Shown: positions 25,685-43,511 of the stretch, piece after piece
Layout of the letters: every line of letters begins with the position of its first letter
How positions within the stretch are numbered: position 1 is the first letter of the stretch
From: an alpha proteobacterium HIMB59
GTDB lineage: Bacteria; Pseudomonadota; Alphaproteobacteria; HIMB59
NCBI GenBank assembly: GCA_004321805.1
Contig: SGZV01000008.1
Location: 1 to 54,765, forward strand
DNA: 54,765 nucleotides
Direction: 5' to 3'
Notes under the pieces: model-generated
What the model was told of the DNA's origin: nothing
Databases searched by the model: none
Seen by the model: only the letters and a program-made list of their open reading frames with translations
Translations under genes and position numbers: made by a program

Positions 25685-27082
25685 TTAAAATAACTTAAGA
25701 TATTCTTTAATTTCCCAATCTGTGGTAGTTGTGTGATATCTAGACCATTCGTCATATTTGTAACCAACAAAATTATTTATCATAGCTTCAGAAAAAACTT
25801 CCTTTGTTAAAGGGTCTGCTGCAAAAGCGTCAACAGCTTCTAAAAGATTTCGTGGTAAGCTAGTTACTTGTTTCTTTTCTTTTTCCGAGAGATCATACAA
25901 ACTTTTATTTGTTGGTTTTGGAGGCTTAAGATCATTATCAATGCCTTCAGTGGCAGCAGCAGCTAATAATGAAAAAGTTAAATATGGATTTTGTGTTAGA
26001 TCTGATGCTCTATTTTCAATGCAATACCTATTTTGAGGAAGTCTAATCATTGCTGATCTATTATTACTTCCATAGGTCATATGTGTGGGAGCCCAAGTAT
26101 GTCGTCCACCATCGAGTCCCTCAACTGTTGGAACAAAGCCATTATACGAGTTTACCGTAGGACATGCTAAAGCGGTTATAGCTGCGCCATGCTTTAATAT
26201 TCCTGCTACTGCATTATATGCCTTGGAAGAAAAACCATTTTTATCTTTATAAATATTATTATTTTTCTTTTTAATTGAGGCTACACTATGATTAATGTGC
26301 GCTCCAGATCTCCAATCGCTTATTGTGGTTTTAGGCATAAAAGAGACAAAATAGCCATATTTCTTGGCAATTTCTTTCAAGAGCACTCTTAAAAAAACAA
26401 ACCTATCAGCCATACCTAAAATATCAGTATAACCAAAATCTAATTCGTATTGTCCATAAGCTCCTTCAGCAACAACATCATGCAAATCCCACTTTAAATC
26501 ATTATTAAGAATATCTATGATTTCTTTTAAAAAATGCATTCCATCAATTGAATATTCAGCATCGTATCCAAATGCTTGTCTTCTTAAAGGTATTGGGTCT
26601 CTATCAATTGCCTTAACAGGTTTATCTCCCTCCCATTTCATTAAAAAAAATTCTGGCTCAATACCTACAAAGAATTTTAAATCAGACTTAGCAGATTTTT
26701 GAATTTGTTTTTTTAAGGTTAATCTAGGACAAACATCGTAAGGTCTATCATTCCAATAAAGATCAGCAAAAACCCAAGCACAGGTTTTATCCCAAGGACA
26801 GATCACTAAACTATCTAAATCAGGAACAGGAATTTGATCATTATCAGCTGGGGTTAATTCGGGAACAAAAGAGACTGAGTGAACAGCAAACTGAGGACCT
26901 TTACCAGCACATAAATCTTCAAAATCTGATATTGGCATTGGTTTAGTTTTAGGACTACCTAAAAAATCTATCCAATTAGAATAGATATATTTAACACCCT
27001 TAGCTTCTAAATCTTTTTTAATTTTTTTAACTCTTTTAGGATCAGGTAGTGCGTCTTTAATATGTCCTTGAAATGTTCCCAC
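25685..27082 (-). CDS. Glutamine synthetase-like gamma-glutamyl ligase, substrate unknown
   Basis: The 465-residue protein has the GS fold: IEPEFFLM with two metal-binding Glu, VAEGAYGQYELDF, SGAHINHS with the ammonia-site His region, NNRSAMIRLPQ and IENRASDLTQNPYL. It also retains a SLYDLSEKEK segment with Tyr396 that resembles the GlnE adenylylation site. It differs from glnA across the glutamate and amine pockets (ISDWRSGAH where GlnA has NGSGMH). It is therefore likely a ligase joining glutamate to an amine other than ammonia, but no substrate can be named. It is paired with the MetX-like hydrolase (adjacent, no gap) and near a class I amidotransferase. Confidence 0.85.
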   Translation of the reverse strand: MGTFQGHIKDALPDPKRVKKIKKDLEAKGVKYIYSNWIDFLGSPKTKPMPISDFEDLCAGKGPQFAVHSVSFVPELTPADNDQIPVPDLDSLVICPWDKTCAWVFADLYWNDRPYDVCPRLTLKKQIQKSAKSDLKFFVGIEPEFFLMKWEGDKPVKAIDRDPIPLRRQAFGYDAEYSIDGMHFLKEIIDILNNDLKWDLHDVVAEGAYGQYELDFGYTDILGMADRFVFLRVLLKEIAKKYGYFVSFMPKTTISDWRSGAHINHSVASIKKKNNNIYKDKNGFSSKAYNAVAGILKHGAAITALACPTVNSYNGFVPTVEGLDGGRHTWAPTHMTYGSNNRSAMIRLPQNRYCIENRASDLTQNPYLTFSLLAAAATEGIDNDLKPPKPTNKSLYDLSEKEKKQVTSLPRNLLEAVDAFAADPLTKEVFSEAMINNFVGYKYDEWSRYHTTTTDWEIKEYLKLF

Positions 27083-27151
27083 TTAATTCTCCAATATTTT
27101 TATTAATAGCTTTTTGATTATATTTTCATAAAATAAAAATACTATAAGAAT

Positions 27152-27406
27152 ATGAATATCAGTTATTTAAAAAATTCTTGGATCCGTTTTTACAAAAGAG
27201 GATTTATGACAGGTCTTTTGATCATGTCTTTTATATTGGTTGTTGATCAATTTTTAGCAAATCCTTTATTTTTTAGTAAAATAACAAGCTTTGATATTTT
27301 TTTATTTATTCTTTCAACAATATTTTTTGGTTCAGTGTTTTGTGGGTTACTATCATTAGTGTTTTTATTGGTAGTTGTTATTGCAACAAAAGACAACAAT
27401 AGTTAA
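27152..27406 (+). CDS. Small hydrophobic membrane protein, unknown
   Basis: This 84-residue protein has two predicted transmembrane helices, roughly residues 16-36 (GFMTGLLIMSFILVVDQF) and 48-76 (IFLFILSTIFFGSVFCGLL onward), with a basic N-terminus and a short KDNNS tail. I do not recognise a family. It is divergent from the glutamine synthetase-like gene with 69 bases between starts, and overlaps the stop of the amidotransferase gene on the other strand by four bases. No clear ribosome site is present, so the call is modest. Confidence 0.6.
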   Translation: MNISYLKNSWIRFYKRGFMTGLLIMSFILVVDQFLANPLFFSKITSFDIFLFILSTIFFGSVFCGLLSLVFLLVVVIATKDNNS

Positions 27407-28137
27407 TTTGTATTCAGCCAAGCTCGAAATTCTTTTTTTCTCACGTACATATCATTTTCTTCTAGTAAATAAAGTTTTTTAATAATTTTATTAAATTCAT
27501 CATTGCTCATTATTTCCAAATAATTTTTTTTCCAATGAGTCATTAATTTACTTATGAAAATATAAGGTAGTTCGGGATGATATTGAGTACAAAATATATT
27601 CATAGACTTATGGCTAATGGATTGTATCGAAATCTCATTTTGAGTAATAATCTCAAAATCTGAATTTATATTTTCTAAATGATCATAATGATGGCCAGGT
27701 GCCGTAAATAAATCCTCTTTATCATCATAAATATGATGATTTTTAATAATTTTTATATTATCTGAAAAACCAAACTCTGGTTTTTTAGCTTTAACAATCT
27801 TATCACCGTAACATGTGGCAATAACTTGAAGCCCCCAACAACTACCCCATAAAGGCTTATTCAAAGATAAAATTCTTTCACAAACATATAGTTGATTTCT
27901 ATTATGAATATTTGGTAAGTATATATTTCCAAGACCACCTGTCCAAATAAAGACATCATAATTTTGATAAGGAAATAACTTTAAATTTTCTTTATAGGTT
28001 TTTAAAATATCTATTGAGGCTCTTTGGTCTTCTTTAAGGATTATTTCATTAAAGAATGTGTATTGATAAGGACATCCAGCGTTATCATGTTCTCGGTCAT
28101 GAGATTCATCCATGCCACTTACGATTAGATATTTCAA
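27403..28137 (-). CDS. Class I glutamine amidotransferase-like hydrolase
   Basis: The 244-residue protein has a class I glutamine amidotransferase fold of the GMP-synthase GATase type: FIWTGGLGNIYLP, the nucleophile Cys in WGSCWGLQVIATC, and the catalytic His/Glu pair in FCTQYHPELPY. No synthetase domain is fused. Stand-alone proteins of this kind near glutamine synthetase homologues often hydrolyse gamma-glutamyl amides (as PuuD does). That role is an inference from context. It is the last gene of the amtB transcript unit, three bases after the 56-residue membrane ORF. Confidence 0.85.
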   Translation of the reverse strand: MKYLIVSGMDESHDREHDNAGCPYQYTFFNEIILKEDQRASIDILKTYKENLKLFPYQNYDVFIWTGGLGNIYLPNIHNRNQLYVCERILSLNKPLWGSCWGLQVIATCYGDKIVKAKKPEFGFSDNIKIIKNHHIYDDKEDLFTAPGHHYDHLENINSDFEIITQNEISIQSISHKSMNIFCTQYHPELPYIFISKLMTHWKKNYLEIMSNDEFNKIIKKLYLLEENDMYVRKKEFRAWLNTN

Positions 28138-30036: not shown

Positions 30037-31344
30037 ATGGCAACCAACCTTCACCAATTTGCAAAAAAAAATGGTGTTAAATACTTTTTTGTAAGCTTTG
30101 TTGATCTATTTGGGGTACTGAGATCAAAACTAGTTCCCGCTACGGCAATTGATGAAATACAATCTGAAGGAGCTGGTTTTGCGGGTTTTGCAACATGGCT
30201 TGATATGTCTCCCGCTGACTCTGATATGTTTGGTATCCCTGATGGAGACAGTGTCATTCAATTACCTTGGAACAAAGAAATCGCATGGGTAGCTTCAGAT
30301 TTATATATGGATGACAAACCTGTAGAAGCATCTCCTAGAATAGCCTTAAAAAGACAAATTGAAAAAGCTTCAAAAAAAGGGCTTTATATGAAGTCCGGAG
30401 TAGAATGTGAATTTTTCCTTGTAAATGAAGATGGAACAGCTTTATCTGATGACAGAGATACACAATCAAAACCTTGTTATGACTCCTCAGCTTTAATGAG
30501 AAGGTATGATGTAATTACAGAAATTTGTGACTCCATGATTTCATTAGGATGGGCTCCTTATCAAAATGATCACGAGGATGCTAATGGTCAATTTGAAATG
30601 AATTGGGATTTTTCTGATTGTTTAGTAACAGCCGATAGACATGCTTTTTTTAAGTTTATGGTAAAATCAATTGCTGAAAAACACTCCTTACGTGCAACTT
30701 TTATGCCAAAGCCCTTCACCAACCTAACAGGAAATGGATGTCATTGTCATGTATCTGTTTGGGATAAAAATGGAAAAAAGAATATGTTTTTAGATAAAAA
30801 AGATGAACTTGGTTTATCTAAAACTGGTTATAATTTCTTAGGTGGGATTATAGAAAGCGCTGATAAGATGGCAGCGATTTTTAATCCAACAATTAATTCA
30901 TATAAAAGAATTAATGGAAGTGTAACAACATCAGGTGCAACATGGGCGCCTAGTTCAATTACCTGGGCAGGGAACAATAGAACACATATGGTAAGAGTAC
31001 CTGGTGCAGGAAGATTTGAATTAAGACTAATGGATGGAGCTACTAACCCCTACCTTCTTCAAGCTGCAATTATCCTTTTAGGTATGGATGGTGTGTCAAA
31101 TAAAAGAGATCCTGGTAAAAGGCTTGATATTAATATGTACACAGAAGGTCATAAAGCAGGAAAAGTTAAAAAACTTCCTCTTAATTTATTAGATGCCATT
31201 AGAGACTTTGATAAGTCAAAAATTATCAGAGAGGGTTTTGGTGATGAGTTAGTGGATAGTTATGTCAAACTCAAGAACCAAGATTGGAATACCTTCAATA
31301 AACATCTTTCCTCGTGGGAAAGAGAAACTACATTAGACTGTTAA
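30037..31344 (+). CDS. gmaS: Gamma-glutamylmethylamide synthetase (GlnA type III homologue)
   Basis: GmaS joins methylamine to the gamma-carboxyl of glutamate with ATP, the first step of the N-methylglutamate pathway. The 435-residue protein matches the GmaS/GlnT branch: FVSFVDLFGVLRSKLVPA, GFAGFATWLDMSPADSDMFG, SGVECEFFLV, NDHEDANGQFEMNWDF, GNGCHCHVS, NNRTHMVRVP and FELRLMDGATNPYL. The adenylylation-site Tyr context of GlnA is absent (INMYTEGHKAG). A Shine-Dalgarno AGGAG is 10 bases before the ATG. The presence of N-methylglutamate synthase and dehydrogenase genes 9-18 kb away supports GmaS. The alternative is a GlnT glutamine synthetase. I favour GmaS from context. Confidence 0.85.
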   Translation: MATNLHQFAKKNGVKYFFVSFVDLFGVLRSKLVPATAIDEIQSEGAGFAGFATWLDMSPADSDMFGIPDGDSVIQLPWNKEIAWVASDLYMDDKPVEASPRIALKRQIEKASKKGLYMKSGVECEFFLVNEDGTALSDDRDTQSKPCYDSSALMRRYDVITEICDSMISLGWAPYQNDHEDANGQFEMNWDFSDCLVTADRHAFFKFMVKSIAEKHSLRATFMPKPFTNLTGNGCHCHVSVWDKNGKKNMFLDKKDELGLSKTGYNFLGGIIESADKMAAIFNPTINSYKRINGSVTTSGATWAPSSITWAGNNRTHMVRVPGAGRFELRLMDGATNPYLLQAAIILLGMDGVSNKRDPGKRLDINMYTEGHKAGKVKKLPLNLLDAIRDFDKSKIIREGFGDELVDSYVKLKNQDWNTFNKHLSSWERETTLDC

Positions 31345-31347
31345 ACC

Positions 31348-31908
31348 TTGGATTTATCACCTGAAATATTAAGAGAAAAATTTTTTGATTGGCAATGCCA
31401 GTCAAGAATGGATGCTTTTCGTACCAAAGGAGGTAGGCCTAATAATTCTATGACACCTCATCTTTTAGACGACAAGGGTGAAGAGTACAGTCGTATTATT
31501 GTTACTCTTGTAGAAAATGATCCTGTAGAAACTACAAAAATGTTTGAATATAATTTTAAGCGTACCTACGATCCTGCTGAGAGATATGATAAAATTAATA
31601 AATTTTTATCTTCTGAATTTTTCATTGATAGGCATAAGTTTAGCGATGCTCTCTTTGCAACATTTCCTGTTAAAAATAAATTTATCGATAAAATCTGCAA
31701 AAAAGGAAAATGCATATTAGACTTTATACATCTATCAACTAATTACAGACTTGAATGCAGTCCATTTCGATTAGACAAAGATGAGCCCGCTTGGGAGAAT
31801 GTTTTTTGGCATAACTTTAATTTCAATCCAGGTTTAAATAAAGAAATCGATGTTATTAAATTTATACCTAACTGGAAAAAATCAAAACTAATTAGGATTT
31901 TAGAATAA
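31348..31908 (+). CDS. Hypothetical protein downstream of gmaS
   Basis: The frame encodes up to 186 residues and begins with a TTG at 31348, two codons after the gmaS TAA and in the same reading frame. No ribosome site is visible, so it may be translated by re-initiation or start at an internal ATG (MDAFRTKGG, near residue 17). The protein is charged and soluble, with no transmembrane helix; it contains two Cys near KKGKCILDF and LECSPF and a Trp-rich stretch WENVFWHNFNFN. I do not recognise a domain. It is followed by a bidirectional terminator. Confidence 0.7.
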   Translation: MDLSPEILREKFFDWQCQSRMDAFRTKGGRPNNSMTPHLLDDKGEEYSRIIVTLVENDPVETTKMFEYNFKRTYDPAERYDKINKFLSSEFFIDRHKFSDALFATFPVKNKFIDKICKKGKCILDFIHLSTNYRLECSPFRLDKDEPAWENVFWHNFNFNPGLNKEIDVIKFIPNWKKSKLIRILE

Positions 31909-31958: not shown

Positions 31959-32441
31959 TTACTCTTTGAGTTTAAAGTTATCGCCCTTGACATAAGTTTT
32001 CTTCAAAGCGACTAATGGGTGATTAGAAGACATTTGAAACTTAATTAAAAGTTCTCTTGCCAACATGTCTCTCTCTTGCTGTCCCTTAGGAAGTTTCATT
32101 TTAGCAGGAACGGTGATCCAACCATTAGCATTTCTATCGAATACTGCTGGTTTATCAGCCTCATAACCCATGTGAACATCCTCAAGCCAATTAAGATCAT
32201 CCCAACCCATAGTCTCAATATATGTTTTCAGGAAAGGAGTTAATTTTTTATAGTCAGGTATTAAATTAACATCATATCTGTAACCAATGTGTTGACCAAT
32301 GGACTTTTCTCTATCTGATTTGATATCTTTATCTTTGAGCTTAGCTCCACCAACTGCTTTGTAGCCACCACCTTTAACATTAAGAGAAAATGACTTAGTC
32401 GCCTTTTTAGTTTTTTTTGTCGTTTTTTTTGCTTTCGGCAT
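31959..32441 (-). CDS. Lys-rich protein of unknown function, last gene of the glx unit
   Basis: The 160-residue protein opens with a lysine/threonine-rich, probably disordered tail (PKAKKTTKKTKKATKSF) and then a compact acidic/aromatic domain (GYRYDVNLIPDYKKLTPFL, MGWDDLNWLEDVHMGYEA, NGWITVPAKMKLPKGQQER). I do not recognise a family. It follows the GlxD gene by 11 bases, so it is likely part of that operon. The basic tail could bind nucleic acid or an acidic partner; that is speculation. It ends at the bidirectional terminator. Confidence 0.75.
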   Translation of the reverse strand: MPKAKKTTKKTKKATKSFSLNVKGGGYKAVGGAKLKDKDIKSDREKSIGQHIGYRYDVNLIPDYKKLTPFLKTYIETMGWDDLNWLEDVHMGYEADKPAVFDRNANGWITVPAKMKLPKGQQERDMLARELLIKFQMSSNHPLVALKKTYVKGDNFKLKE

Positions 32442-32452
32442 TATTTTCTCCT

Positions 32453-33787
32453 TTATATTGAATGGTAATTCTTTACACCAACGGTCATGTCTGTTCCAGC
32501 TAAAGGAACTTTAGCCATGGCTGATGCTTCCATTGTTAATGCAGCTAAATCTTCTGGCTCTAAAGAGTGAAGGTTTGTTTTACCACAAGCTCTTGCCATT
32601 AGCTGAGCCTCAAGAGTCATTGTGTTAAGCATATTATAAACTCTTTCAGCTGCTTCAGTTGGGTCTAATCTACTTCTAAGAACAGGGTCTTGAGTAGCAA
32701 CACCAACTGGACATCTACCAGTATGACAGTGGTAACAGTAACCAGCCTCAACTCCCATTTCTTTTTCAAAGTCTGCTTCAGGAATATCTTTATTACAATT
32801 TAATGCAATAAGTCCCGCTGTACCAATAGCAATTGCGTCAGCACCAAGTGCCAGAGCTTTAGCCATATCTACACCGTCTCTTATTCCACCAGCATAAACT
32901 AAAGTGATATCGCCAGATTTTCCAACATCATCAAGTGCCCTTCTAGCCTCTCTAACTGCTCCAATACCAGGAATACCAGTATTAGCGGCTGCAACGTGAG
33001 GCCCTGCACCAGTTGAACCTTCCATTGAGTCTAGGAAAATTGAGTCAGGATCACATTTTGCTGCCATTCTAACATCATCATAAACTCTTGAAGCACCAAG
33101 TTTTAATTGTATTGGAACTTGATTGTCAGTTAACTCTCTCAATTCAGCAACTTTTAAAGCCAAATCGTCTGGACCCATCCAATCAGGATGTCTTGCAGGC
33201 GATCTTTGATCAATTCCTGCAGGTAAAGATCTCATCTCAGCTACCTGATCAGTAACTTTTTGACCCATAAGGTGTCCACCCATGCCAACTTTTTGTCCTT
33301 GACCGATAAATACCTCAATCGCATCAGCTAATTGTGCGTGGTGAGGATTAAAGCCATATCGTGATTGAATACACTGATAATACCATTTGTTAGAATATCT
33401 TCTCTCATCAGGTATCATACCACCTTCACCAGAACAGGTTGCACTTCCGGCCATCGTTGCTCCTCTAGCAAGAGCAGTTTTAGCTTCATAAGAAAGAGCA
33501 CCAAAGCTCATACTTGTTATGTAAACAGGTATATCTAACTTAATTGGGTTTTTAGCCCTTGGTCCAATGACTGTTTCAGTTAAACATTTCTCACGATAAC
33601 CCTCAATAACAAAACGAGTGAGTGTTCCAGGGAGAAATGTTAAATCATCCCAATGAGGAATTTTTTTCATGAGGGCCATACCCCTCATTCTGTATCTTCC
33701 TAACTGCGCCTTAATATGGATATCATCCATGACGTCAGGAGTGAAGATTGCGTTTTTACCTAAAAGCGTTGTATTTCTTTTTGCCAT
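32453..33787 (-). CDS. glxD: Glutamate synthase-like FMN domain protein (GlxD), iron-sulfur motif retained
   Basis: The 444-residue protein corresponds to the FMN-binding synthase domain of glutamate synthase large subunit as a stand-alone chain. Visible blocks are PVYITSMSFGALSYEAKTALA, GMIPDERRY, FGFNPHHAQ-type substrate segment, VPIQLKLGASRVY, GGIRDGVDMAKALALGADA and the motif CYHCHTGRCPVGVATQDP with Cys351, Cys354 and Cys359, probable 3Fe-4S ligands. It follows GlxC by 8 bases. It is a paralogue of the protein at 40625-41947, which lacks those cysteines. The set likely transfers nitrogen or an amine onto 2-oxoglutarate, substrate unknown. Confidence 0.88.
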   Translation of the reverse strand: MAKRNTTLLGKNAIFTPDVMDDIHIKAQLGRYRMRGMALMKKIPHWDDLTFLPGTLTRFVIEGYREKCLTETVIGPRAKNPIKLDIPVYITSMSFGALSYEAKTALARGATMAGSATCSGEGGMIPDERRYSNKWYYQCIQSRYGFNPHHAQLADAIEVFIGQGQKVGMGGHLMGQKVTDQVAEMRSLPAGIDQRSPARHPDWMGPDDLALKVAELRELTDNQVPIQLKLGASRVYDDVRMAAKCDPDSIFLDSMEGSTGAGPHVAAANTGIPGIGAVREARRALDDVGKSGDITLVYAGGIRDGVDMAKALALGADAIAIGTAGLIALNCNKDIPEADFEKEMGVEAGYCYHCHTGRCPVGVATQDPVLRSRLDPTEAAERVYNMLNTMTLEAQLMARACGKTNLHSLEPEDLAALTMEASAMAKVPLAGTDMTVGVKNYHSI

Positions 33788-33795
33788 AATATCTC

Positions 33796-34635
33796 CTAAC
33801 CTAATATTCCTTTTCTTTCACTTGGTTCTAGATTGTCATAGTTCCAAAGTTTTTTTCCGGATACAAATTTCTTGAATTTGCTAACTGGTGTTTTTGAGCT
33901 AATTTCTGCGTTATTAAGTTTTTGTTCGAGCCATCTAATTTCATACTCGTTCATTTCACCTTCTACACAGTCACTACCTAATGACTTAACATCACCGCCA
34001 ACAAATATCATTCCATCATACATTGAGTCACCCATGTTTGCGCTAACATCTCCACAAACAATAATTCTTCCTCTTTGCATCATAAAACCAGTAAAGGCTC
34101 CGGCGTTACCACCAATTAAGATAGTTCCACCTTTCATATCAATACCAGTTCTAGCACCAGCATTACCTTTAACTATTAAGTCCCCACCTCGAAGCGCTGC
34201 TCCAAAACATGAGCCAGCATTATTTTCAACAAGAACTTTTCCAGCCATCATATTTTCTGCACAAGACCATCCAACTCTTCCTTTAATTCTGACTGTTGGT
34301 CCATCAATACAACCAACACCAAAATAACCAAGGCTACCTTCAAAAATCACATTTAATTTATTTAAGATACCCACACCAAGTGAGTGTTTCGCACCAGGGT
34401 TTTTAATAACAACAGTGCCGTAGCCCTTGTTCATCGCATCTCTTATTTTTTGATTAAGCTCTCTTGCTTCTAAGTCGGTGCAATCAATTGATGTTCTCTT
34501 GTTAAAATCGACATCAACATTTCCGTAATAAGTATAATTTTCTTCTTCTGTTGCGCTAAAGTATAATTTTTGCGTTCTTCCCGTTAAGTTCTCATCAGAA
34601 AAAGCTGTATTTTCTCTTTTAGCTATACCTGCCAT
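33796..34635 (-). CDS. glxC: Glutamate synthase-like GXGXG domain protein (GlxC)
   Basis: The 279-residue protein is the stand-alone beta-helix (GXGXG) domain of the glutamate synthase large subunit. Repeated turns such as GWSCAENMMAGKVLVENNAG, ALRGGDLIVKGNAGARTGID, MKGGTILIGGNAGAFTGF and GDSMYDGMIFVGGDVKSLG show the repeat. About 50 extra N-terminal residues distinguish it from the second copy (227 residues). The gene overlaps the GlxB gene by 13 bases and precedes GlxD by 8, so the subunits are translated together. Confidence 0.88.
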   Translation of the reverse strand: MAGIAKRENTAFSDENLTGRTQKLYFSATEEENYTYYGNVDVDFNKRTSIDCTDLEARELNQKIRDAMNKGYGTVVIKNPGAKHSLGVGILNKLNVIFEGSLGYFGVGCIDGPTVRIKGRVGWSCAENMMAGKVLVENNAGSCFGAALRGGDLIVKGNAGARTGIDMKGGTILIGGNAGAFTGFMMQRGRIIVCGDVSANMGDSMYDGMIFVGGDVKSLGSDCVEGEMNEYEIRWLEQKLNNAEISSKTPVSKFKKFVSGKKLWNYDNLEPSERKGILG

Positions 34636-35564
34636 ACTTTTACCTCCGCTTCATATGGGTCATAAGTTTTAATTTCATGAGGGAAGATATTTCTAATAGC
34701 TACCTCCTCAGACGCACAAGCAACGATATCTTTGCTCTCATAAATAACCATTGGTTTTGCAGCCATGTAATCTTTAGCCATACCCAACTGGTCTTTAGTA
34801 GCTACGACGTAAGTGAAAACTCCATCTAGCTCATCTAAGCTATCATGCATTGCTTTTTCCAATTCAATTCCATTAGCCATTTTATCAGCAATATAAACTG
34901 CGATAATTTCTGAGTCACAATTGGAATTAAATCTATAACCTTTTCTCTCCAAAACTCTTCTGTTACCCCAATAGTTAGTTAACTGTCCATTATGAACAAC
35001 TGAAACATCTTCAAATGGGAACGCCCAATATGGATGTGCTGATTTAATATCAACATCTGACTCTGTGGCCATGCGAGTATGACCAATTCCATGGGTTCCC
35101 ATGAACTTACCTAAGCCATATTGATCAGCAACAGTAGTAGCGTCTCCAAGATCTTTGATTAACTCTAAGCCTTTGCCTATTGATAAGATTTCAGCTTTCT
35201 CAACAGTTTCAACTTCAGTGGCTAAATCTGTAAGGTCGCCCTTAAAATCAAATTCATATCTAAAAGCATATGGTGTGCTGGAGCTTTGTTTGGTTATTTT
35301 AGCGCCATGTTTTTTCATGATTGCATCTACTTGACTTTTTCTGTCTTTCAATTGCTCAGGTGAATCAACAACAGCATTTACCTTTTCAGCTTCATTCTCA
35401 GAAATTTTAAATCTCATAACGAAGCCTTTTTTCTTAGGTGTACCATACATAGCATAACCAGTTGAATCCGGTCCCCTATGCTTTAAACCCTGTAACATAA
35501 GACGCATTTGTTCGCCGACATTCACAGTTTTCTTTCTATTTATTACTCCAGCTATTCCACACAT
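34623..35564 (-). CDS. glxB: Class II glutamine amidotransferase subunit (GlxB)
   Basis: The 313-residue protein is the Ntn-type glutaminase domain on its own chain. The nucleophile Cys follows the start Met (MCGIAGVIN), and further active-site blocks are LKHRGPDSTGYAMYG, GIGHTRMATESDVDIKSAHPYW and VVHNGQLTNYWGNRR. It would release ammonia or an amine from a gamma-glutamyl amide. The start of this protein lies 20 bases downstream of the glutamine synthetase homologue. It is longer than the second copy at 42630-43511 (293 residues). Sequence divergence between the copies suggests different substrates. Confidence 0.88.
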   Translation of the reverse strand: MCGIAGVINRKKTVNVGEQMRLMLQGLKHRGPDSTGYAMYGTPKKKGFVMRFKISENEAEKVNAVVDSPEQLKDRKSQVDAIMKKHGAKITKQSSSTPYAFRYEFDFKGDLTDLATEVETVEKAEILSIGKGLELIKDLGDATTVADQYGLGKFMGTHGIGHTRMATESDVDIKSAHPYWAFPFEDVSVVHNGQLTNYWGNRRVLERKGYRFNSNCDSEIIAVYIADKMANGIELEKAMHDSLDELDGVFTYVVATKDQLGMAKDYMAAKPMVIYESKDIVACASEEVAIRNIFPHEIKTYDPYEAEVKVWQV

Positions 35565-35584
35565 ACTTTTCTCCTTATTTTATT

Positions 35585-37051
35585 TTATGGTAAGCAATCC
35601 AAATATTTATCAAGATCCCACTGAGTTGGAGTTGCTAGGAATTCTTCCCACTCATCTCTTTTGTACTCAGTGAATACTCTTAACATGTCGCCTGGAAGTG
35701 CGCCTTGAATAAGTTCATCTTTGTCTAACTTATCAAGAGCTTCACCCAAGGTCATAGGTAATTTTTCTTTACCAGCATTGGCTTCATACATATTTGCCTG
35801 TTCTGGTTTACCTGGGTCCATTTTTTCTTCAATTCCATGACCAAATGCAGCTAATAAACCTGAACCCATAAGGTAAGGATTATGAGCAGAGTCAACGGAA
35901 CGATATTCAAATCTGCCAGGAGCTGATACACGAAGACCACAAGTTCTATTTTGATATCCCCAATCTGCATATACTGGAGCCCAAAAACCTGCATCCCATA
36001 GTCTTCTATATGAATTAACTGTTGAGGAACCCAAAGCAGTAAGAGCAGGTAAATGTTCCATCACACCGCCGATAGCCCAAAGCCCGATTTGACCCGGTAT
36101 TTTTCTATCATCTGTATCAGGCATGAATACGTTATCACCACCTCTTCTATGGTGATAAACCTGTTCCATTCCTGGTAAGGCTTTTTTATCATTACCACAT
36201 GGAATAAGTTGATCCTCTCCCTCTCTCCATAATGAAATGTTAGTATGACAACCTGAAGCTGATACGCCAACAAATGGCTTAGACAAGAAACAAGCTATTA
36301 AATTAAATTCTCTTGCTACTTGAGCGCAGATTTGTCTGTAAGTAGATAATCTATCTGCATTTCTTAAGACATCGTCAAAGTTAAAGTTTAATTCTAATTG
36401 ACCTGGTGCATCTTCATGATCGCCCTGAATAATATCAAGACCCATAAATCTAGAGTACTCGATTACCTTCATGTATACAGGTCTTAGAGATTCAAATTGA
36501 TCGATGTGGTAACAGTAAGGCTTAGAGAAGCCAGAACCCGTTGGAGTTCCATCTTCATTTTTTGTAAGCCACATCATTTCTGGTTCTGTTCCAGCTCTAA
36601 GCTCTAGGCCATGTTTTTCCTTAAATTCTTTATGAGCTCTTTTTAAATTTCCACGACAATCAGAAGTTAAAAATCCACCTGGGTCATTTTCTTCTTCTCT
36701 ATTTCTAAAACAAGTACAGAAAACTCTTGCAATTCTTTTATCCCATGGAAGTTGAACAAATGTTTCAGGATCAGGAATACCAACTAACTCATGGGCCTCA
36801 GGTCCATAACCAATGTAATCACCATTCCTGTTCGTAAATAAATTTGCTGTTGATCCATAGACCAATTGGAAGCCTTTTTGAGCAACAGTCTCCCAGTGAT
36901 CAGCTGGATAACCCTTACCTACAATTCTTCCAGTAACAGAAATAAATTGAAAATAGATATATTCAATACCTAACTCATCAATTTTACTTCTTACCTTTTT
37001 AACGTTTTCATTTCTTTCTTTATCTGCAACGTACGTTTCTAATGCTGTCAT
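35585..37051 (-). CDS. Glutamine synthetase-like ligase of the second glx module, substrate unknown
   Basis: The 488-residue GS homologue has GTEPEMMWLT with metal-binding Glu residues, QGDHEDAPGQLELNFNFDD, SASGCHTNIS, QNRTCGLRVS and FEYRSVDSAHNPYL. The GlnA adenylylation motif is not present (NMYEANAGKEKLP). It lies between an FAD oxidoreductase (18-base gap) and GlxB (20-base gap). The chain GS-GlxB-GlxC-GlxD mirrors GmaS-MgsABC. I infer it makes a gamma-glutamyl amide of an amine that is not methylamine. The protein is more distant from GmaS than GmaS is from GlnT relatives. Confidence 0.85.
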   Translation of the reverse strand: MTALETYVADKERNENVKKVRSKIDELGIEYIYFQFISVTGRIVGKGYPADHWETVAQKGFQLVYGSTANLFTNRNGDYIGYGPEAHELVGIPDPETFVQLPWDKRIARVFCTCFRNREEENDPGGFLTSDCRGNLKRAHKEFKEKHGLELRAGTEPEMMWLTKNEDGTPTGSGFSKPYCYHIDQFESLRPVYMKVIEYSRFMGLDIIQGDHEDAPGQLELNFNFDDVLRNADRLSTYRQICAQVAREFNLIACFLSKPFVGVSASGCHTNISLWREGEDQLIPCGNDKKALPGMEQVYHHRRGGDNVFMPDTDDRKIPGQIGLWAIGGVMEHLPALTALGSSTVNSYRRLWDAGFWAPVYADWGYQNRTCGLRVSAPGRFEYRSVDSAHNPYLMGSGLLAAFGHGIEEKMDPGKPEQANMYEANAGKEKLPMTLGEALDKLDKDELIQGALPGDMLRVFTEYKRDEWEEFLATPTQWDLDKYLDCLP

Positions 37052-37069
37052 TTTATTCCTCCTTTTACA

Positions 37070-38416
37070 TCAACTCCAAGGGAACGGACTATTAGAGACC
37101 GGATGTAATTTCCCTTCTGCATATCGAGAAAATCTGAAAGGTTCTAGAATTTCAGACTTACTCCCTAGTACTTCGTCAGACACCAAATCGCCAACACCGG
37201 CCATTTTGTATCCATGATTAGCGTCTGCTATAATATAGACATTTTCCCTGTATTGGTCGAATACTGGGAATCGATCAGGTGTCACACAGCCAATACCGCC
37301 AGCTTTTTGCTTTTTGTATTTGGCATGACATCCATTAAACTGTTTTTGACAAAAAGCCATTGCAGATGTGAATTTATCCTCAAATGCTGCTCGAGGCTGA
37401 AACTCATCTGACTTATGACCATATGGATCAATGTTAACTTCATTAGAAGGTTTTATTACATCATATGGAGAAGAACCACCTTGAATACCATTTCTATAAA
37501 CATCTGGTTTATAATAAAAACCCCACATCTCGTTTTCATGAATAACTTCTCCAGTTTTATTTGAAACAAGAGTTGATTCAGTGTCAACATGAATAACTGG
37601 GTATTCATTTCCTTGTGCTGTTCGATAACTATGAGGATCTACTTCAAGTTCTCCTTCTTCAAGAGCCATGTAAGACCACATAGGAATATCATCAGTAAAT
37701 GAACCATCTGGTTGTTTAATCTTTACTGAGTTAGGTAGCTCTAAAATCTCCCAAAATTTTCTAACCCAAGGACCTGCAGCAACGACAAGTTGAGTGCATT
37801 CAACTTTTCCATGATTAGTTTCAACAGCAGTTACAGCTCCGCTACCATTAGAAGAGATTAAATTTGTCACTTCAACACCTTCTAAAATTTTTGCTCCAGC
37901 TGACTCTGCTAGTTTCTTAAAACCTAGGTTAGCGCCTAGGTTAGCGCCATAGCCAGAATTTTTTTCATGAAGAACAGAAGTTATGCCTTGAGCCTGCCAA
38001 TCAGGAAGCATCTCTTTCATGTACTTATCACAGTCAGCAGCACCTTCAATAAAAGTTGAGTCATAACCAATTTCTTTTTGTTGATGGTAAACCTCTGACA
38101 TTCCCTCATGCATTAATTGAGAATTAATTTGCATATAGCCAACTTTTCTAAAAGTTAAAGCTTCTGCATTTTCATTCCATACATTAACTGAATGAGCCAT
38201 TAATCTTCTCATTGCAGGTTGATAATAATTATTTCTTACAATACCGCAGGCAACGCTGGTTGCACCTTCACCTACTTTTGTTTTTTCAAGAACAACAACA
38301 GAATTTTCTTTTAATTGACCTTTACTGGATAATTTTTTACATAAATGCCAAGCTGTGCTTAGGCCATGAATACCTCCTCCTATAATTAAGTATTCACAAT
38401 TAGATGGTAAGCTCAT
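37070..38416 (-). CDS. FAD-dependent amine oxidoreductase (DAO/SoxB-like)
   Basis: The 448-residue protein has the FAD-binding start YLIIGGGIHGLSTAWHL (about residues 10-26), the conserved GEGATSVACGIVRNNYYQPAMRRL segment, and a C-terminal GIGCVTPDRFPVFDQ and ADANHGYKMAGVGDLV, typical of the D-amino acid oxidase/sarcosine oxidase beta fold. It lacks the companion SoxD/SoxA/SoxG subunits, so it is probably a stand-alone oxidase or dehydrogenase. It is the first gene of the second glx module, with a palindromic operator 62 bases before its start. It probably oxidises the N-alkyl amino acid formed by GlxBCD. Confidence 0.87.
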   Translation of the reverse strand: MSLPSNCEYLIIGGGIHGLSTAWHLCKKLSSKGQLKENSVVVLEKTKVGEGATSVACGIVRNNYYQPAMRRLMAHSVNVWNENAEALTFRKVGYMQINSQLMHEGMSEVYHQQKEIGYDSTFIEGAADCDKYMKEMLPDWQAQGITSVLHEKNSGYGANLGANLGFKKLAESAGAKILEGVEVTNLISSNGSGAVTAVETNHGKVECTQLVVAAGPWVRKFWEILELPNSVKIKQPDGSFTDDIPMWSYMALEEGELEVDPHSYRTAQGNEYPVIHVDTESTLVSNKTGEVIHENEMWGFYYKPDVYRNGIQGGSSPYDVIKPSNEVNIDPYGHKSDEFQPRAAFEDKFTSAMAFCQKQFNGCHAKYKKQKAGGIGCVTPDRFPVFDQYRENVYIIADANHGYKMAGVGDLVSDEVLGSKSEILEPFRFSRYAEGKLHPVSNSPFPWS

Positions 38417-39335: not shown

Positions 39336-40622
39336 CTAAAAAAATTTATTTTCTATCTCTTCTTTTTTTCGATAATAAATTCCTAAAACAGGAAGAAGAA
39401 AAGAAATAATTTTCTTAAAATAATTTTTTTTACTATTTATTTTTGTAATAATTATCGGCGAATTAGTTTTTTTAGTGATAAGAGATATAGACTTATACCC
39501 AAGGTATGGCATTAACGCTACTCCACTCCCATTACATCCAAAAACATAAAGCTTATTTTTTTCATTTTTTACGTGAGGTAGAGTATTAAATGTAACGCCC
39601 ACTTTACCTCCCCAAATGTAATTTATTTTGAAGTTATTTAATGATGGAAGTATGCGTGAGATATTTTTATAAAAAAAACTCTCTACAAATCTGCTGCTCT
39701 CTTTTTGGTAGGCCCACACAGGAAAAGCCCCAAATAAAAGCCTTTTATGGTCTGGAGTTGGTCTGAAATAAAATAAATCATTTTTAGTATCAGAGTACAT
39801 TCTAAGTTTTGGCATAACTTTACTAATAGCCTCAGTACCAATTTCATTGGTAACCGCAATATATGAGGGGACACCAATGATATTATAATTTTCTTTTCCT
39901 ATTTCCTTTTCACTATAACCATTTGTGGCGAATAGGAGGAATTTAGTCTTAACAATTCCCTCAGTGGTATTTACTATGTGATAATTTTCTATTTTTTTGT
40001 GTGATAGTAATTTACAGGGAGAAAAAATATCTAATTTACAGTTTAAGGCTTTATCTAATAAAAATTTATAAAATAAACTCGGATGAATACTTGCTGCATC
40101 ATGAACTAGCATACCTCCTTTGTAGTAATCATTTGAAATTTCATGATCTATGTTCTTTAAAAAATCTAATTTAAGATTTGTTAATCTGTTTAATAAATCT
40201 ATTTTTTTCCTAAGAGCTTCTAATTTTTTTTTACTATGAGCTAAAACTAGTCTACCTGTCTTTTGAAATTTTACCTCTGAGTGATAGCCATTAACGCGAT
40301 CCTCTAAAAATCTATAGGAGTCGATTGACTCTTTAATAAAATCAACAGCCATTTGATCACCATATTCTTTGAATAGATCAACTTTCTTTCCAAAATTTAA
40401 ACCTCCTGATACCATTCCAGCACTTCGAGTACTAGCTCCTTCCCCTAATGCATTTTGATCGATTAATAAAGTTTTAAGATTTTTAGATACTGACTCTTGA
40501 GCTGCACATATTCCAGTATATCCTGCACCAATAATTACAAGATCATAAGTTTGATTATTAATTGAACAATTTTGGAAATGGTATGGTTTATAATCTTCCC
40601 ACCAATAAGGGTAAAATTTCAA
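39336..40622 (-). CDS. FAD-dependent oxidoreductase, PuuB-like (gamma-glutamyl amine type)
   Basis: The 428-residue protein opens with a PuuB-like leader (YPYWWEDYKPYHFQN) and FAD motif IIGAGYTGICAAQE, followed by GEGASTRSAGMVSGGLNFGKK and FRPTPDHKRLLFGA, the pattern of gamma-glutamylputrescine oxidoreductase and related amine oxidases. It is two bases downstream of the MgsC-like gene and so is likely the last gene of the mgd-mgs unit. The C-terminus is very Lys-rich. Its substrate cannot be fixed; a gamma-glutamyl amine or an N-methyl amino acid is plausible. Confidence 0.85.
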   Translation of the reverse strand: MKFYPYWWEDYKPYHFQNCSINNQTYDLVIIGAGYTGICAAQESVSKNLKTLLIDQNALGEGASTRSAGMVSGGLNFGKKVDLFKEYGDQMAVDFIKESIDSYRFLEDRVNGYHSEVKFQKTGRLVLAHSKKKLEALRKKIDLLNRLTNLKLDFLKNIDHEISNDYYKGGMLVHDAASIHPSLFYKFLLDKALNCKLDIFSPCKLLSHKKIENYHIVNTTEGIVKTKFLLFATNGYSEKEIGKENYNIIGVPSYIAVTNEIGTEAISKVMPKLRMYSDTKNDLFYFRPTPDHKRLLFGAFPVWAYQKESSRFVESFFYKNISRILPSLNNFKINYIWGGKVGVTFNTLPHVKNEKNKLYVFGCNGSGVALMPYLGYKSISLITKKTNSPIIITKINSKKNYFKKIISFLLPVLGIYYRKKEEIENKFF

Positions 40623-40624
40623 AT

Positions 40625-41947
40625 TTAAATTTTAGTACCAGGTATCCAACTAGTACCAGCTAGAGGAACTCTTGCCATTGCAGCTGCTTCAACAGTTATT
40701 GCACATAAATCCTCAGGCTCTAAGTTGTGTAAATCGTTTTTTCCGCAAGCTCTTGCAATAGTTTGGGCCTCTAAAGTCATCACTTTGAGATAATTTGATA
40801 AGCGTTTTCCACCTTTAATTGGATCTAATCTTTTCATTAGCTCAGGGTCTTGAGTGTTTATTCCTGAAGGGTCTTTCCCCTCATGCCAATCGTCAAAAGC
40901 ACCTGCAGTTGTACCTAATTTTTTATAATCTTTTTCCCATTTAGGATCATTGTCACCCAAAGCTATTAATGCCGAAGAGCCAATAGAAACAGCATCTGCA
41001 CCTAAGGCCATGGCCTTAGCTACATCAGCTCCATTTCTTATTCCACCTGAAATAATTAATTGAACTTTTCTATGCATATCTAAATCCAACAAGGCATCTA
41101 CTGCCGGCCTAATACAAGCTAAAGTAGGTTGACCAACATTCTCAATAAATACCTCTTGAGTAGCTGCGGTTCCACCTTGCATACCATCTAAGACAACTAC
41201 GTCCGCTCCAGCCTTAACAGCTAAGGCGGTATCATAATATGGTCTAGCACCAGCTATCTTCACAAATATAGGAACTTTCCATCCAGTAATTTCTCTCAAT
41301 TCTAAAATTTTTATTTCAAGATCATCGGGGCCAGTCCAATCTGGATGTCGACAGGCAGACCTTTGATCAATTCCTTTGGGTAAAGTTCTCATCTCAGCAA
41401 CTCTATCGCTAATCTTTTGTCCCAGTAGCATTCCTCCACCGCCAGGTTTTGCTCCTTGACCTATAACAACTTCTATAGCATCAGCTTTCCTTAAATCTTC
41501 AGGGTTCATTCCATATCTAGATGGTAATAATTGATAAACTAAATGTTTTGATTGTCCTCTTTCTTCTGGAGTCATACCACCATCACCAGTTGTAGTTGAA
41601 GTACCAGCAATGCTCGCACCTCTTCCTAGAGCTTCTTTAGCAGGTCCTGACAATGCACCAAAACTCATTCCTGCTATAGTTATAGGAATGTCTAATTGGA
41701 GTGGGTTTTTGGCATATCTTGTTCCAAGTGTAACGTTTGTAGAACATTTCTCTCTATAACCTTCCAAAGGATATCTCGACATAGAAGCACCAAGAAAAAG
41801 TAAATCATCAAAATGAGGTAATCTTTTTTTTGATCCACCACCTCTAATATCATAAATGCCTGTCTCGGCTGCTCTTCTTATTTCAGAATTAGTGTAATCA
41901 TCAAATGTCCATGACTTTCTTGGAACTGTTTTGTACTGATCACTCAT
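40625..41947 (-). CDS. mgsC: N-methylglutamate synthase FMN subunit (MgsC/GlxD type), no iron-sulfur cysteines
   Basis: The 440-residue protein aligns with the FMN domain of glutamate synthase: IPITIAGMSFGALSGPAKEALG, GDGGMTPEERGQ, VPIFVKIAGARPYYD, GGIRNGADVAKAMALGADAV and the tail LEAQTIARACGKNDLHNLEPEDL. Where the paralogue at 32453-33787 has Cys351, Cys354 and Cys359, this protein has Phe351, Trp354 and Asp359 in AGAFDDWHEGKDPSGINTQD, so the cluster is lost. It is the third subunit of the set directly after mgdABCD, which supports a role in N-methylglutamate synthesis. Its start overlaps the MgsB stop by one base. Confidence 0.85.
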   Translation of the reverse strand: MSDQYKTVPRKSWTFDDYTNSEIRRAAETGIYDIRGGGSKKRLPHFDDLLFLGASMSRYPLEGYREKCSTNVTLGTRYAKNPLQLDIPITIAGMSFGALSGPAKEALGRGASIAGTSTTTGDGGMTPEERGQSKHLVYQLLPSRYGMNPEDLRKADAIEVVIGQGAKPGGGGMLLGQKISDRVAEMRTLPKGIDQRSACRHPDWTGPDDLEIKILELREITGWKVPIFVKIAGARPYYDTALAVKAGADVVVLDGMQGGTAATQEVFIENVGQPTLACIRPAVDALLDLDMHRKVQLIISGGIRNGADVAKAMALGADAVSIGSSALIALGDNDPKWEKDYKKLGTTAGAFDDWHEGKDPSGINTQDPELMKRLDPIKGGKRLSNYLKVMTLEAQTIARACGKNDLHNLEPEDLCAITVEAAAMARVPLAGTSWIPGTKI

Positions 41948-42630
41948 TAGTATTCTGATACATTATCTATATTAAAATTATAGAGTTTTCTTGCTGATCC
42001 ATACATTTTAAAATTATTAATATCTTTGTCATTTAATCCGGATTTATCGAGAAGAGATTTTAAAATTTTTTTATCCTTTTCTGTGATTTTTTTTTCCTCA
42101 CAATCAGCTCCTAAAGATTTTACTTTGCCGCTAATAAAAATTTTAGCTTCATATATACTATCACCTAGCGCATCTCCAGCATCTCCACAAATAACCAAAT
42201 TTCCTGATTGAGCCATAAAAGCTGACATATGACCAACAGAACCTTTAACAATTATATCTATGCCTTTCATTGATATTCCACATCGAGAACTTGTATCTCC
42301 ATCAACAATTAGAGTTCCACCGTGGGCTGTAGCCCCTGCTGATTGGGAAGCATTGCCTTTTACATGGACAGTACCAGACATCATATTCTCTGCTACTCCT
42401 GTTCCAACATTTCCATTTATTGTTATTTGGGCATTCATATTCATTCCTGCACAATAATATCCTGCATGACCATCGACTGTGACTTCAATTTCATCTTTTA
42501 AGCCGGCACATATTGAATGATTGCCATCGGGATTATTTATCACAAACGAACGATTATTCGATTTTTTATCAATATTTTGAAGATGATCATTTACATCTCT
42601 AAGAGAGTCTTTTTTTAGATTGAATTTCAT
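41947..42630 (-). CDS. mgsB: N-methylglutamate synthase GXGXG subunit (MgsB/GlxC type)
   Basis: The 227-residue protein is the GXGXG beta-helix domain: GHAGYYCAGMNMNAQITINGNVG, GVAENMMSGTVHVKGNASQ, HGGTLIVDGDTSSRCGISMKG and DALGDSIYEAKIFISGKVKSLGADC. It is about 50 residues shorter than the paralogue at 33796-34635, mainly at the N-terminus. Overlap of one base with each neighbour indicates tight translational coupling in the MgsABC set. Confidence 0.86.
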   Translation of the reverse strand: MKFNLKKDSLRDVNDHLQNIDKKSNNRSFVINNPDGNHSICAGLKDEIEVTVDGHAGYYCAGMNMNAQITINGNVGTGVAENMMSGTVHVKGNASQSAGATAHGGTLIVDGDTSSRCGISMKGIDIIVKGSVGHMSAFMAQSGNLVICGDAGDALGDSIYEAKIFISGKVKSLGADCEEKKITEKDKKILKSLLDKSGLNDKDINNFKMYGSARKLYNFNIDNVSEY

Positions 42631-43511
42631 TATTTACCCCAGCTATACACTAGCCCCGGATCAGGTTCGAATATTTTTGCCTTATTAACATTTGGTAAAT
42701 GAGCCATAGCTTGAAACTCTGAGGCAATTGCAACATAGTCTTTAGTCTCTGCAACTACTGCGGGCTTACAAGCTATTTCATCTCTTACTATTGCCATGCC
42801 ACTCTTAGTTCCAGAGATAAATGTATAAAAGCCATCAAGATCTTTTAATCCATCTATTAACGTTTCTTTTAAAGATTTTTTATTAAGCAATCCACTAGAG
42901 ATGTATCCTGCAGCTACTTCCGTATCATTTTGAGATCTTATCTCAATACCTCTTTTTTTAAGTGTTCTTCTTAGATTGTTATGATTAGACAGAGATCCAT
43001 TATGCACTAAACATTCATCTTTACCGGTAGAGTAAGGATGAGATCCATCTGTGGTAATAGCGCTTTCAGTTGCCATTCTAGTATGACCAATTGCATGAGT
43101 ACCAGAAAACTTTTCCAAGTTGAAATTTTTAACAACATCTTTTGGATTTCCTACTTGCTTAAATATCTCAATAGAATTTCCATATCCAACAAGACTTAAG
43201 TTTTTAAATTTCTTTATTATGTCCAAAACCTTAGCAGGTGCTAAAGTGGTCTCAATGATCAAATGATCAGCTATAACTTTTATTTTAGCATCTTTAATTT
43301 TTTTAATTATCTGACTTTTAATTTCCTTTGCGCTCGTTTCACTAAAGCAAACAGAGTATTTATATCTATTTTTTTTTTCAGGGGAATAAATGGCAAAACC
43401 AGCACTATCTGGTCCCCTAGTAGCCATATTATTCATCATTCCCGTGAGAAGTTTCCCAAGGTCTTTATTTAGTTTTTTATTTTTAAGATAAATTCCTACA
43501 ATACCGCACAT
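42630..43511 (-). CDS. mgsA: N-methylglutamate synthase class II amidotransferase subunit (MgsA/GlxB type)
   Basis: The 293-residue Ntn amidotransferase domain has the nucleophile Cys after Met1 (MCGIVGIYLKN), MATRGPDSAGFAIY, AIGHTRMATESAITTDGSHPY and CLVHNGSLSNHNNLRR. It would release methylamine from gamma-glutamylmethylamide and pass it to the synthase domain. The start follows mgdD by 6 bases, placing MgsABC in the same transcript as the N-methylglutamate dehydrogenase. That adjacency is the main reason I assign the mgs names to this copy and not to the one at 32453-35564. Confidence 0.86.
   Translation of the reverse strand: MCGIVGIYLKNKKLNKDLGKLLTGMMNNMATRGPDSAGFAIYSPEKKNRYKYSVCFSETSAKEIKSQIIKKIKDAKIKVIADHLIIETTLAPAKVLDIIKKFKNLSLVGYGNSIEIFKQVGNPKDVVKNFNLEKFSGTHAIGHTRMATESAITTDGSHPYSTGKDECLVHNGSLSNHNNLRRTLKKRGIEIRSQNDTEVAAGYISSGLLNKKSLKETLIDGLKDLDGFYTFISGTKSGMAIVRDEIACKPAVVAETKDYVAIASEFQAMAHLPNVNKAKIFEPDPGLVYSWGK

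Follow-up and report, generated by a model that had tools for sequence, protein, structure and literature searches.

Tdm converts trimethylamine N-oxide (TMAO) to dimethylamine (DMA), and DmmDABC of Ruegeria pomeroyi and Methylocella silvestris, an oxygenase, takes DMA onward to free methylamine and formaldehyde. For methylamine, the indirect pathway via N-methylglutamate (GmaS–MgsABC–MgdABCD) uses a glutamine synthetase (GS)-like ligase, a three-part glutamate-synthase-like transferase, and a sarcosine-oxidase-like flavoprotein. The SAR11 bacteria, which are the most abundant in the ocean and account for about 30% of all bacterial cells at its surface (PMC8918994), have tmm, tdm, and gmaS but no dmmDABC, and this has been called a bottleneck at which DMA, an aerosol precursor, builds up in seawater (Lidbury et al. 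2017, PMC5520151). SAR11 strain HTCC1062, which has no dmmDABC, grows with TMAO as the sole nitrogen source, and the authors of that study postulated an unknown DMA enzyme or isoenzyme (2022, PMC8918994). Here, we describe a six-gene operon located in a 54,765-nucleotide stretch of an alphaproteobacterium of the HIMB59 lineage (assembly GCA_004321805.1, contig SGZV01000008.1, positions 1 to 54,765; hereafter, the window). The operon is most likely a new variant of the gamma-glutamyl-amide pathway, one that would serve DMA. On comparative genomic grounds, we consider it quite probable that this variant is a monooxygenase-free route standing in for DmmABC in bacteria that degrade trimethylamine (TMA) and TMAO, and our confidence in DMA as the substrate is likewise high.

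The six open reading frames (ORFs) occupy positions 31959–38416 of the minus strand and encode, in reading order, FAD2, GS2, GlxB2, GlxC2, GlxD2, and Lys160. The gaps between them are 18, 20, −13, 8, and 11 bases, indicating that the six genes form one operon. FAD2 (37070–38416) is a flavoprotein of the monomeric sarcosine-oxidase/DAO type (DAO, PF01266, 122 bits), a single chain of 448 amino acids with no folate-binding (GcvT) domain. Among solved proteins, it is closest to SoxB, monomeric sarcosine oxidase, and dimethylglycine dehydrogenase, and it is present in SAR11 and in most genomes that have the module. GS2 (35585–37051) is a divergent GmaS-like ligase (Gln-synt_C, PF00120, 263 bits). 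GlxB2 (34623–35564) carries a class II glutamine amidotransferase domain (PF13522/PF13537) and begins with MCGIAG, the nucleophile Cys2 being present; GlxC2 (33796–34635) is a GXGXG-domain subunit (PF01493), and GlxD2 (32453–33787) contains the glutamate-synthase-type domain that binds flavin mononucleotide (FMN) (Glu_synthase, PF01645, 286 bits). The last gene, at 31959–32441, encodes the small 160-residue protein Lys160, which had no family match in the Pfam or NCBIfam searches. Its N-terminus is variable and lysine-rich, its core is nearly invariant among homologues, and the gene is kept downstream of GlxD2 across orders, which makes it a marker of the module. The AlphaFold model of FAD2 was moderate, with a predicted local distance difference test (pLDDT) score of 63.6, and revealed the DAO fold only, while that of Lys160 was poor (pLDDT 54.9); no function was drawn from either. 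The ORFs and the family searches agree with the gene string given in a preliminary description of this DNA, which had also presented the oxidoreductase as monomeric, unlike the four-subunit Mgd, and the whole set as divergent paralogues of the methylamine genes. The identities bear this out, being about 32% between GS2 and GmaS and 52% between GlxD2 and MgsC.

The distribution of the module was examined in 386 alphaproteobacterial genomes, in 148 genomes of the SAR11 family, and in a phylum-wide sample that yielded 23 further genomes with Tdm. These genomes are partly drafts, and match thresholds were set by E-value. Orthologues of GS2, 64–75% identical, were found in 38 of the 386 alphaproteobacterial genomes. 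They are spread over many families, and the complete gene string is conserved across many of them, indicating that the module is not a product of chance. Tdm was present in 35 genomes of the same sample and occurred together with GS2 in 27, while about 3.4 such genomes would be expected by chance. The SAR11 sample gave a similar picture: 50 genomes had both GS2 and Tdm, 94 had neither, and four had one only, and in these four (G830, G849, G921, and G929) tdm or FAD2 is the last gene before a contig break. As Tdm makes DMA from TMAO, the module follows the gene that creates DMA. The preliminary description had suggested looking for the six genes in genomes that lack tmm and tdm; the search gave the opposite result, namely a strong tie to tdm.

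This tie is also seen in the gene order. The module, found in about one third of the SAR11 genomes examined, lies directly downstream of tdm in SAR11, where the genes are typically arranged as Tdm, FAD2, GS2, GlxB2, GlxC2, GlxD2, Lys160, and an ammonium transporter, with or without MgsABC, and then GmaS. Outside SAR11, the core adjoins genes for Tmm and Tdm or for SoxA/SoxB, often with the convergent gene orf186 at its side.

An independent line to DMA as the substrate is a second enzyme, N,N-dimethylformamidase, which splits dimethylformamide into formate and DMA. In two genomes of the same genus that have neither Tdm nor Dmm, G403 and G133, the gene for its large subunit neighbours the module (PF20254, 326 and 318 bits), lying beside Lys160 in G403 and one gene further in G133. 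The G403 gene matched the solved dimethylformamidase 6lvb with 564 bits; the 146-residue ORF that follows the dimethylformamidase gene had no match to the solved small subunit. The gene is convergent with the module and is not part of the same operon, and as both genomes belong to one genus, the link counts as one observation. The genomic coupling to a DMA producer that a DMA-degrading system should have was found with both Tdm and dimethylformamidase.

To follow the DMA monooxygenase, its heme-dependent alpha subunit was taken as PF11927 (HODM_asu-like). None of the 27 Tdm-containing module genomes had a strong match to this family, while six of the eight Tdm-containing alphaproteobacterial genomes without the module did. 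All 23 further genomes from the phylum sample had it as well, and one of them carried a distant relative of GS2 (52% identical). Altogether, the 58 Tdm genomes comprise 27 with the module and no Dmm, 29 with a Dmm-type gene and no module, and two with neither. In one of these two, G028, which belongs to the genus of the window, the contig ends inside tdm. When the count was made by family to lessen the weight of common descent, the module was found in 13 families and Dmm in 11, and no family had the two together (p = 2.7e-6). The PF11927 matches are credible as Dmm because 20 of the 29 share a contig with tdm and are no more than 23 kb away from it, and the one in G140 is followed by a ferredoxin-reductase-type gene. 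Weak, partial matches in the genus of the window (51–59 bits) were set aside as distant relatives, and none of the six module proteins matched the family. Most likely, as judged from these genome comparisons, the module replaces Dmm in TMA and TMAO degraders.

That a ligase of the GmaS type can act on DMA is known from Rhodovulum GmaS, which uses DMA with a kcat of 2.6 per s and a Km of 16 mM, the Km for methylamine being 27 uM (PMC7948447). A DMA ligase is therefore feasible, and GmaS itself cannot serve DMA at the concentrations of seawater, whereas a tuned relative could. We infer the substrate and each reaction of the following scheme by comparative genomics, from the conservation of the module, its coupling to DMA sources, the replacement of Dmm, and the residues kept in its enzymes. 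GS2 would join DMA to glutamate with the consumption of ATP, giving gamma-glutamyl-dimethylamide. Inside the GlxBCD2 complex, GlxB2 would release DMA from this amide, and the FMN subunit GlxD2 would couple it reductively to 2-oxoglutarate, forming N,N-dimethylglutamate. FAD2 would then oxidatively demethylate this compound to N-methylglutamate and formaldehyde, and Mgd, or FAD2 once more, would convert N-methylglutamate to glutamate. In such a scheme, glutamate would retain the nitrogen, with no need for free methylamine to form. The free-standing GcvT/DmdA-like protein encoded at 50716–51909, next to Tdm, is possibly a DmmD-like partner and could transfer the formaldehyde to folate, a role also proposed for DmmD. 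We hold these exact intermediates to be slightly better than an even bet. Neither N,N-dimethylglutamate nor gamma-glutamyl-dimethylamide was found in this context in the literature searched, which covers few subscription journals. The preliminary description had proposed a second route, with its own ligase, transferase, and oxidase, through the gamma-glutamyl amide of a different amine, and this idea has become the reading best supported by comparative genomics. The amine, which it had left unnamed, is now proposed to be DMA from the coupling to Tdm and dimethylformamidase and the exclusion of Dmm.

Several observations weigh against a DMA pathway that replaces Dmm. The Fisher tests ignore phylogeny, the family-level test being the sole exception. 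PF11927 is broader than Dmm, and the match in G080 is weak and may represent another protein. One genome, G372, has Tdm but lacks both the module and any PF11927 match. Nine genomes of the 386-genome sample have the module and no Tdm, and an adjacent DMA producer was found in just two of them, those of the single genus with dimethylformamidase. Finally, many SAR11 genomes with the module have GmaS but no MgsC, and GlxBCD2 may in these cases also, or mainly, serve methylamine. The complete SAR11 genomes G252 and G834 (L138, L214) are of this kind, having GmaS and the module and no true MgsC genome-wide. In such genomes, GlxBCD2 may also process gamma-glutamylmethylamide, so that this step may be common to both routes. 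As a separate observation, G372 carries MgsC as well as Tdm, and its lack of the module and of PF11927 could reflect a third route for DMA or a different function of its Tdm homologue.

One alternative is that the module constitutes another methylamine route, in part redundant with the first, in which GS2 makes gamma-glutamylmethylamide, GlxBCD2 makes N-methylglutamate, and FAD2 oxidizes the latter. GlxBCD2 would then perhaps be the sole N-methylglutamate synthase of the many SAR11 and other module genomes without true MgsC, and the operon is often found near GmaS. The active site of GS2 can be read both ways. Against the GmaS family model TIGR03105 (NCBIfam, type III), GS2 scored 291.7 bits, below the cutoff of 469.6. 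All GmaS catalytic residues are nevertheless kept: Lys30′, Tyr147, Gln175, Asp177, Glu179, Glu186, Asn188, Arg312, and Arg317 were present in 84 of 84 GS2 orthologues, and the first seven of these bind the amine and remove its proton in GmaS. The pocket around them is different from that of GmaS and invariant, with Ile174, Gly176, Pro182, Leu185, and Leu187 where GmaS has Tyr, Asn, Asn, Phe, and Met, respectively. Moreover, GS2 accompanies GmaS and does not take its place. In 12 Tdm-containing module genomes that also have true MgsC, the methylamine route is complete, and it is the DMA step that would otherwise be missing; a spare methylamine route also gives no reason for the exclusion of Dmm. 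Because true MgsC coexists with the module and Dmm is excluded, we rejected this explanation as the principal one and regard it as unlikely.

A further alternative concerns FAD2, which alone could be the missing enzyme, turning free DMA into methylamine, with GS2 and GlxBCD2 then handling the methylamine. FAD2 directly follows tdm in SAR11, and such an activity would explain the replacement of Dmm equally well. Arg61 and Lys404 of FAD2 align with the Arg and Lys of SoxB; in sarcosine oxidases, these two residues hold the carboxylate of the N-methyl amino acid that serves as substrate. Their conservation favours an N-methylated amino acid as the substrate and disfavours direct oxidation of DMA. 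A "general amine oxidase" expressed by HTCC1062 was named as a candidate by Lidbury et al. (PMC5520151). An orthologue of FAD2 is, however, present in a genome that has Dmm and no GS2 (G208), and in some families FAD2 lies apart while the core of GS2, GlxBCD2, and Lys160 still adjoins tdm. There would also be no need for dedicated GS2 and GlxBCD2 proteins in genomes that have GmaS and MgsABC. We therefore give this explanation a low probability.

It is very improbable that the module handles another amine, such as ethylamine, ethanolamine, taurine, or a polyamine. GS-like ligases are versatile, GmaS accepts ethylamine with a Km of 58 uM (PMC7948447), and the module occurs without Tdm in the nine genomes mentioned above, but this explanation accounts for neither the tie to Tdm, nor the mutual exclusion with Dmm, nor the dimethylformamidase neighbour. 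An ordinary duplicate of GS and glutamate synthase (GOGAT) for ammonium assimilation can practically be dismissed: GlxD2 keeps the GOGAT-type cluster cysteines and an ammonium transporter gene follows the operon in SAR11, but the genome already has GlnA (6671–8086), GS2 has the GmaS-type amine pocket with Asp177 and Gln175 that the GlnA of the window lacks, Amt-type transporters are common beside methylamine genes, and such a duplicate offers no explanation for the tie to Tdm.

Cys331, Cys354, and Cys359 were present in 70 of 70 GlxD2 orthologues and align with the 3Fe-4S ligands of GltB, while these cysteines are absent in 17 of 19 MgsC proteins. N-methylglutamate synthase exchanges the amine of glutamate without outside electrons, and the cysteines kept in GlxD2 thus suggest that GlxBCD2 draws electrons from a partner. 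The partner might be FAD2, whose electrons, taken from N,N-dimethylglutamate, would return via the 3Fe-4S site of GlxD2 to FMN and make the next N,N-dimethylglutamate. This electron loop is only an idea, and a self-contained, redox-balanced DMA route of this type seems to us a rather doubtful prospect. The two MgsC proteins that have the cysteines (L103:18683–19987 and L139:6222–7550) are possible intermediates between GlxD2 and the cysteine-free MgsC.

The rest of the window holds a complete methylamine set. GmaS, the gamma-glutamylmethylamide synthetase of the methylamine route, is encoded at 30037–31344 on the plus strand (TIGR03105, 648.6 bits), its best Protein Data Bank match being Rhodovulum GmaS 7cql (608 bits). 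The N-methylglutamate synthase genes for MgsC, MgsB, and MgsA (40625–43511, minus strand) have the Glu_synthase, GXGXG, and GATase signatures. The trimethylamine monooxygenase Tmm (48810–50144, plus strand; NF058570, 724 bits) and Tdm, the presumed source of DMA (51915–54266, minus strand; NF053776, 1151.5 bits), both scored above their cutoffs, and an Mgd of the SoxA/SoxB type is also present. Next to the module, the convergent gene orf186 (31348–31908, plus strand) belongs to no Pfam family; homologues that are 30–40% identical lie beside the module in several alphaproteobacterial families and orders. A pipecolate-oxidase-like FAD protein is encoded at 39336–40622, 2 bases from MgsC, and is missing from this place in near relatives (L058–L075). 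The region 24671–28137 contains a third GS homologue (25685–27082) near a class I glutamine amidotransferase (27403–28137) and a 337-residue ORF. Like GlnA, this homologue lacks the GmaS-type acidic base; as it has Val at position 177 in place of Asp, it may serve another gamma-glutamyl route.

More divergent relatives of GS2, 52–64% identical, were found in G306, G408, and G752 and as second copies elsewhere. They were considered as module members and rejected, as no GlxBCD2 was found nearby in G306, in G408, at the second copy of G213, or on a Ruegeria plasmid. Because GlxBCD2 was absent from the neighbourhoods read and the plasmid copy lies with a P450 and an ABC transporter, these relatives are treated as a separate subfamily. 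On the plasmid (NZ_CP065360.1, L231, 4819–14456), the GS2 relative is accompanied not only by the P450 and the ABC transporter but also by a class I amidotransferase and a 2Fe-2S ferredoxin, in what looks like another amine-degradation cluster. Divergent relatives, 51–64% identical to GS2, also stand beside a degenerate GS (L231; L155–L157). Several alphaproteobacteria have yet another GlxBCD-type family, with about 40% identity to MgsC (L145:1–1826 of G131, G403:C96, G211:C9, and G329:C84).

In the closed genome G807, Tdm, FAD2, GS2, GlxB2, GlxC2, GlxD2, Lys160, Amt, and MgsABC follow in this order. We take SAR11_1302 of HTCC1062, labelled opuAC, to be the TMAO-binding protein TmoX. In the same strain, the aminomethyltransferase SAR11_1303 is followed by SAR11_1304, a "monomeric sarcosine oxidase" (PMC3160333), and SAR11_1305 is annotated as glnT (PMC5069961). 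By position, SAR11_1304 to SAR11_1309 would be this operon, located beside tdm, with SAR11_1304 orthologous to FAD2 and SAR11_1305 to GS2. Under sulfur limitation, SAR11_1302 and SAR11_1305 fall in parallel, to 0.22 and 0.19 (PMC5069961), which fits shared control. The growth of HTCC1062 on TMAO as the sole nitrogen source bears only indirectly on the consumption of DMA by cells. If the operon is indeed a DMA pathway, the SAR11 bottleneck deduced from dmm counts is largely not there, and the gap between TMAO demethylation and nitrogen assimilation would be closed in much of SAR11. GS2 (the SAR11_1305 type) would be the gene by which DMA use should be tracked in ocean metagenomes, the standing question of DMA in SAR11 would become directly testable, and a secondary amine would have a new biochemical way of demethylation without a monooxygenase step.

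Compared with the known systems, the module is closest in logic to the indirect methylamine pathway, of which its proteins are distant paralogues. GlxB2, GlxC2, and GlxD2 match the three-gene set MgsABC in order, with the class II amidotransferase (PF13522), GXGXG (PF01493), and FMN (PF01645) domains, and GlxD2 has kept the cluster cysteines that most MgsC proteins have lost. The module differs in the amine pocket of its ligase, in the extra gene Lys160, and in its oxidase: MgdABCD has four subunits with SoxA-type and GcvT/folate domains, whereas FAD2 is a single DAO protein. The module is often present alongside the full methylamine set. FAD2 has the DAO fold of the dimethylglycine dehydrogenase and sarcosine oxidase family, whose chemistry is the stepwise demethylation of an N,N-dimethyl amino acid, as well as that family's carboxylate-binding Arg and Lys, but its C-terminal half is divergent, the folate domain is lacking, and its proposed substrate is N,N-dimethylglutamate. 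The ligase and the transferase come from the same superfamilies as GS and GOGAT, GlxB2, GlxC2, and GlxD2 corresponding to three domains of GltB; the module has these as split subunits, has no GltD partner in the operon, and has a GmaS-like amine pocket in GS2. Meanwhile, DmmDABC has no sequence relation to the module and is proposed to share only its task, the onward processing of DMA after Tdm, and in the genomes examined the two exclude each other.

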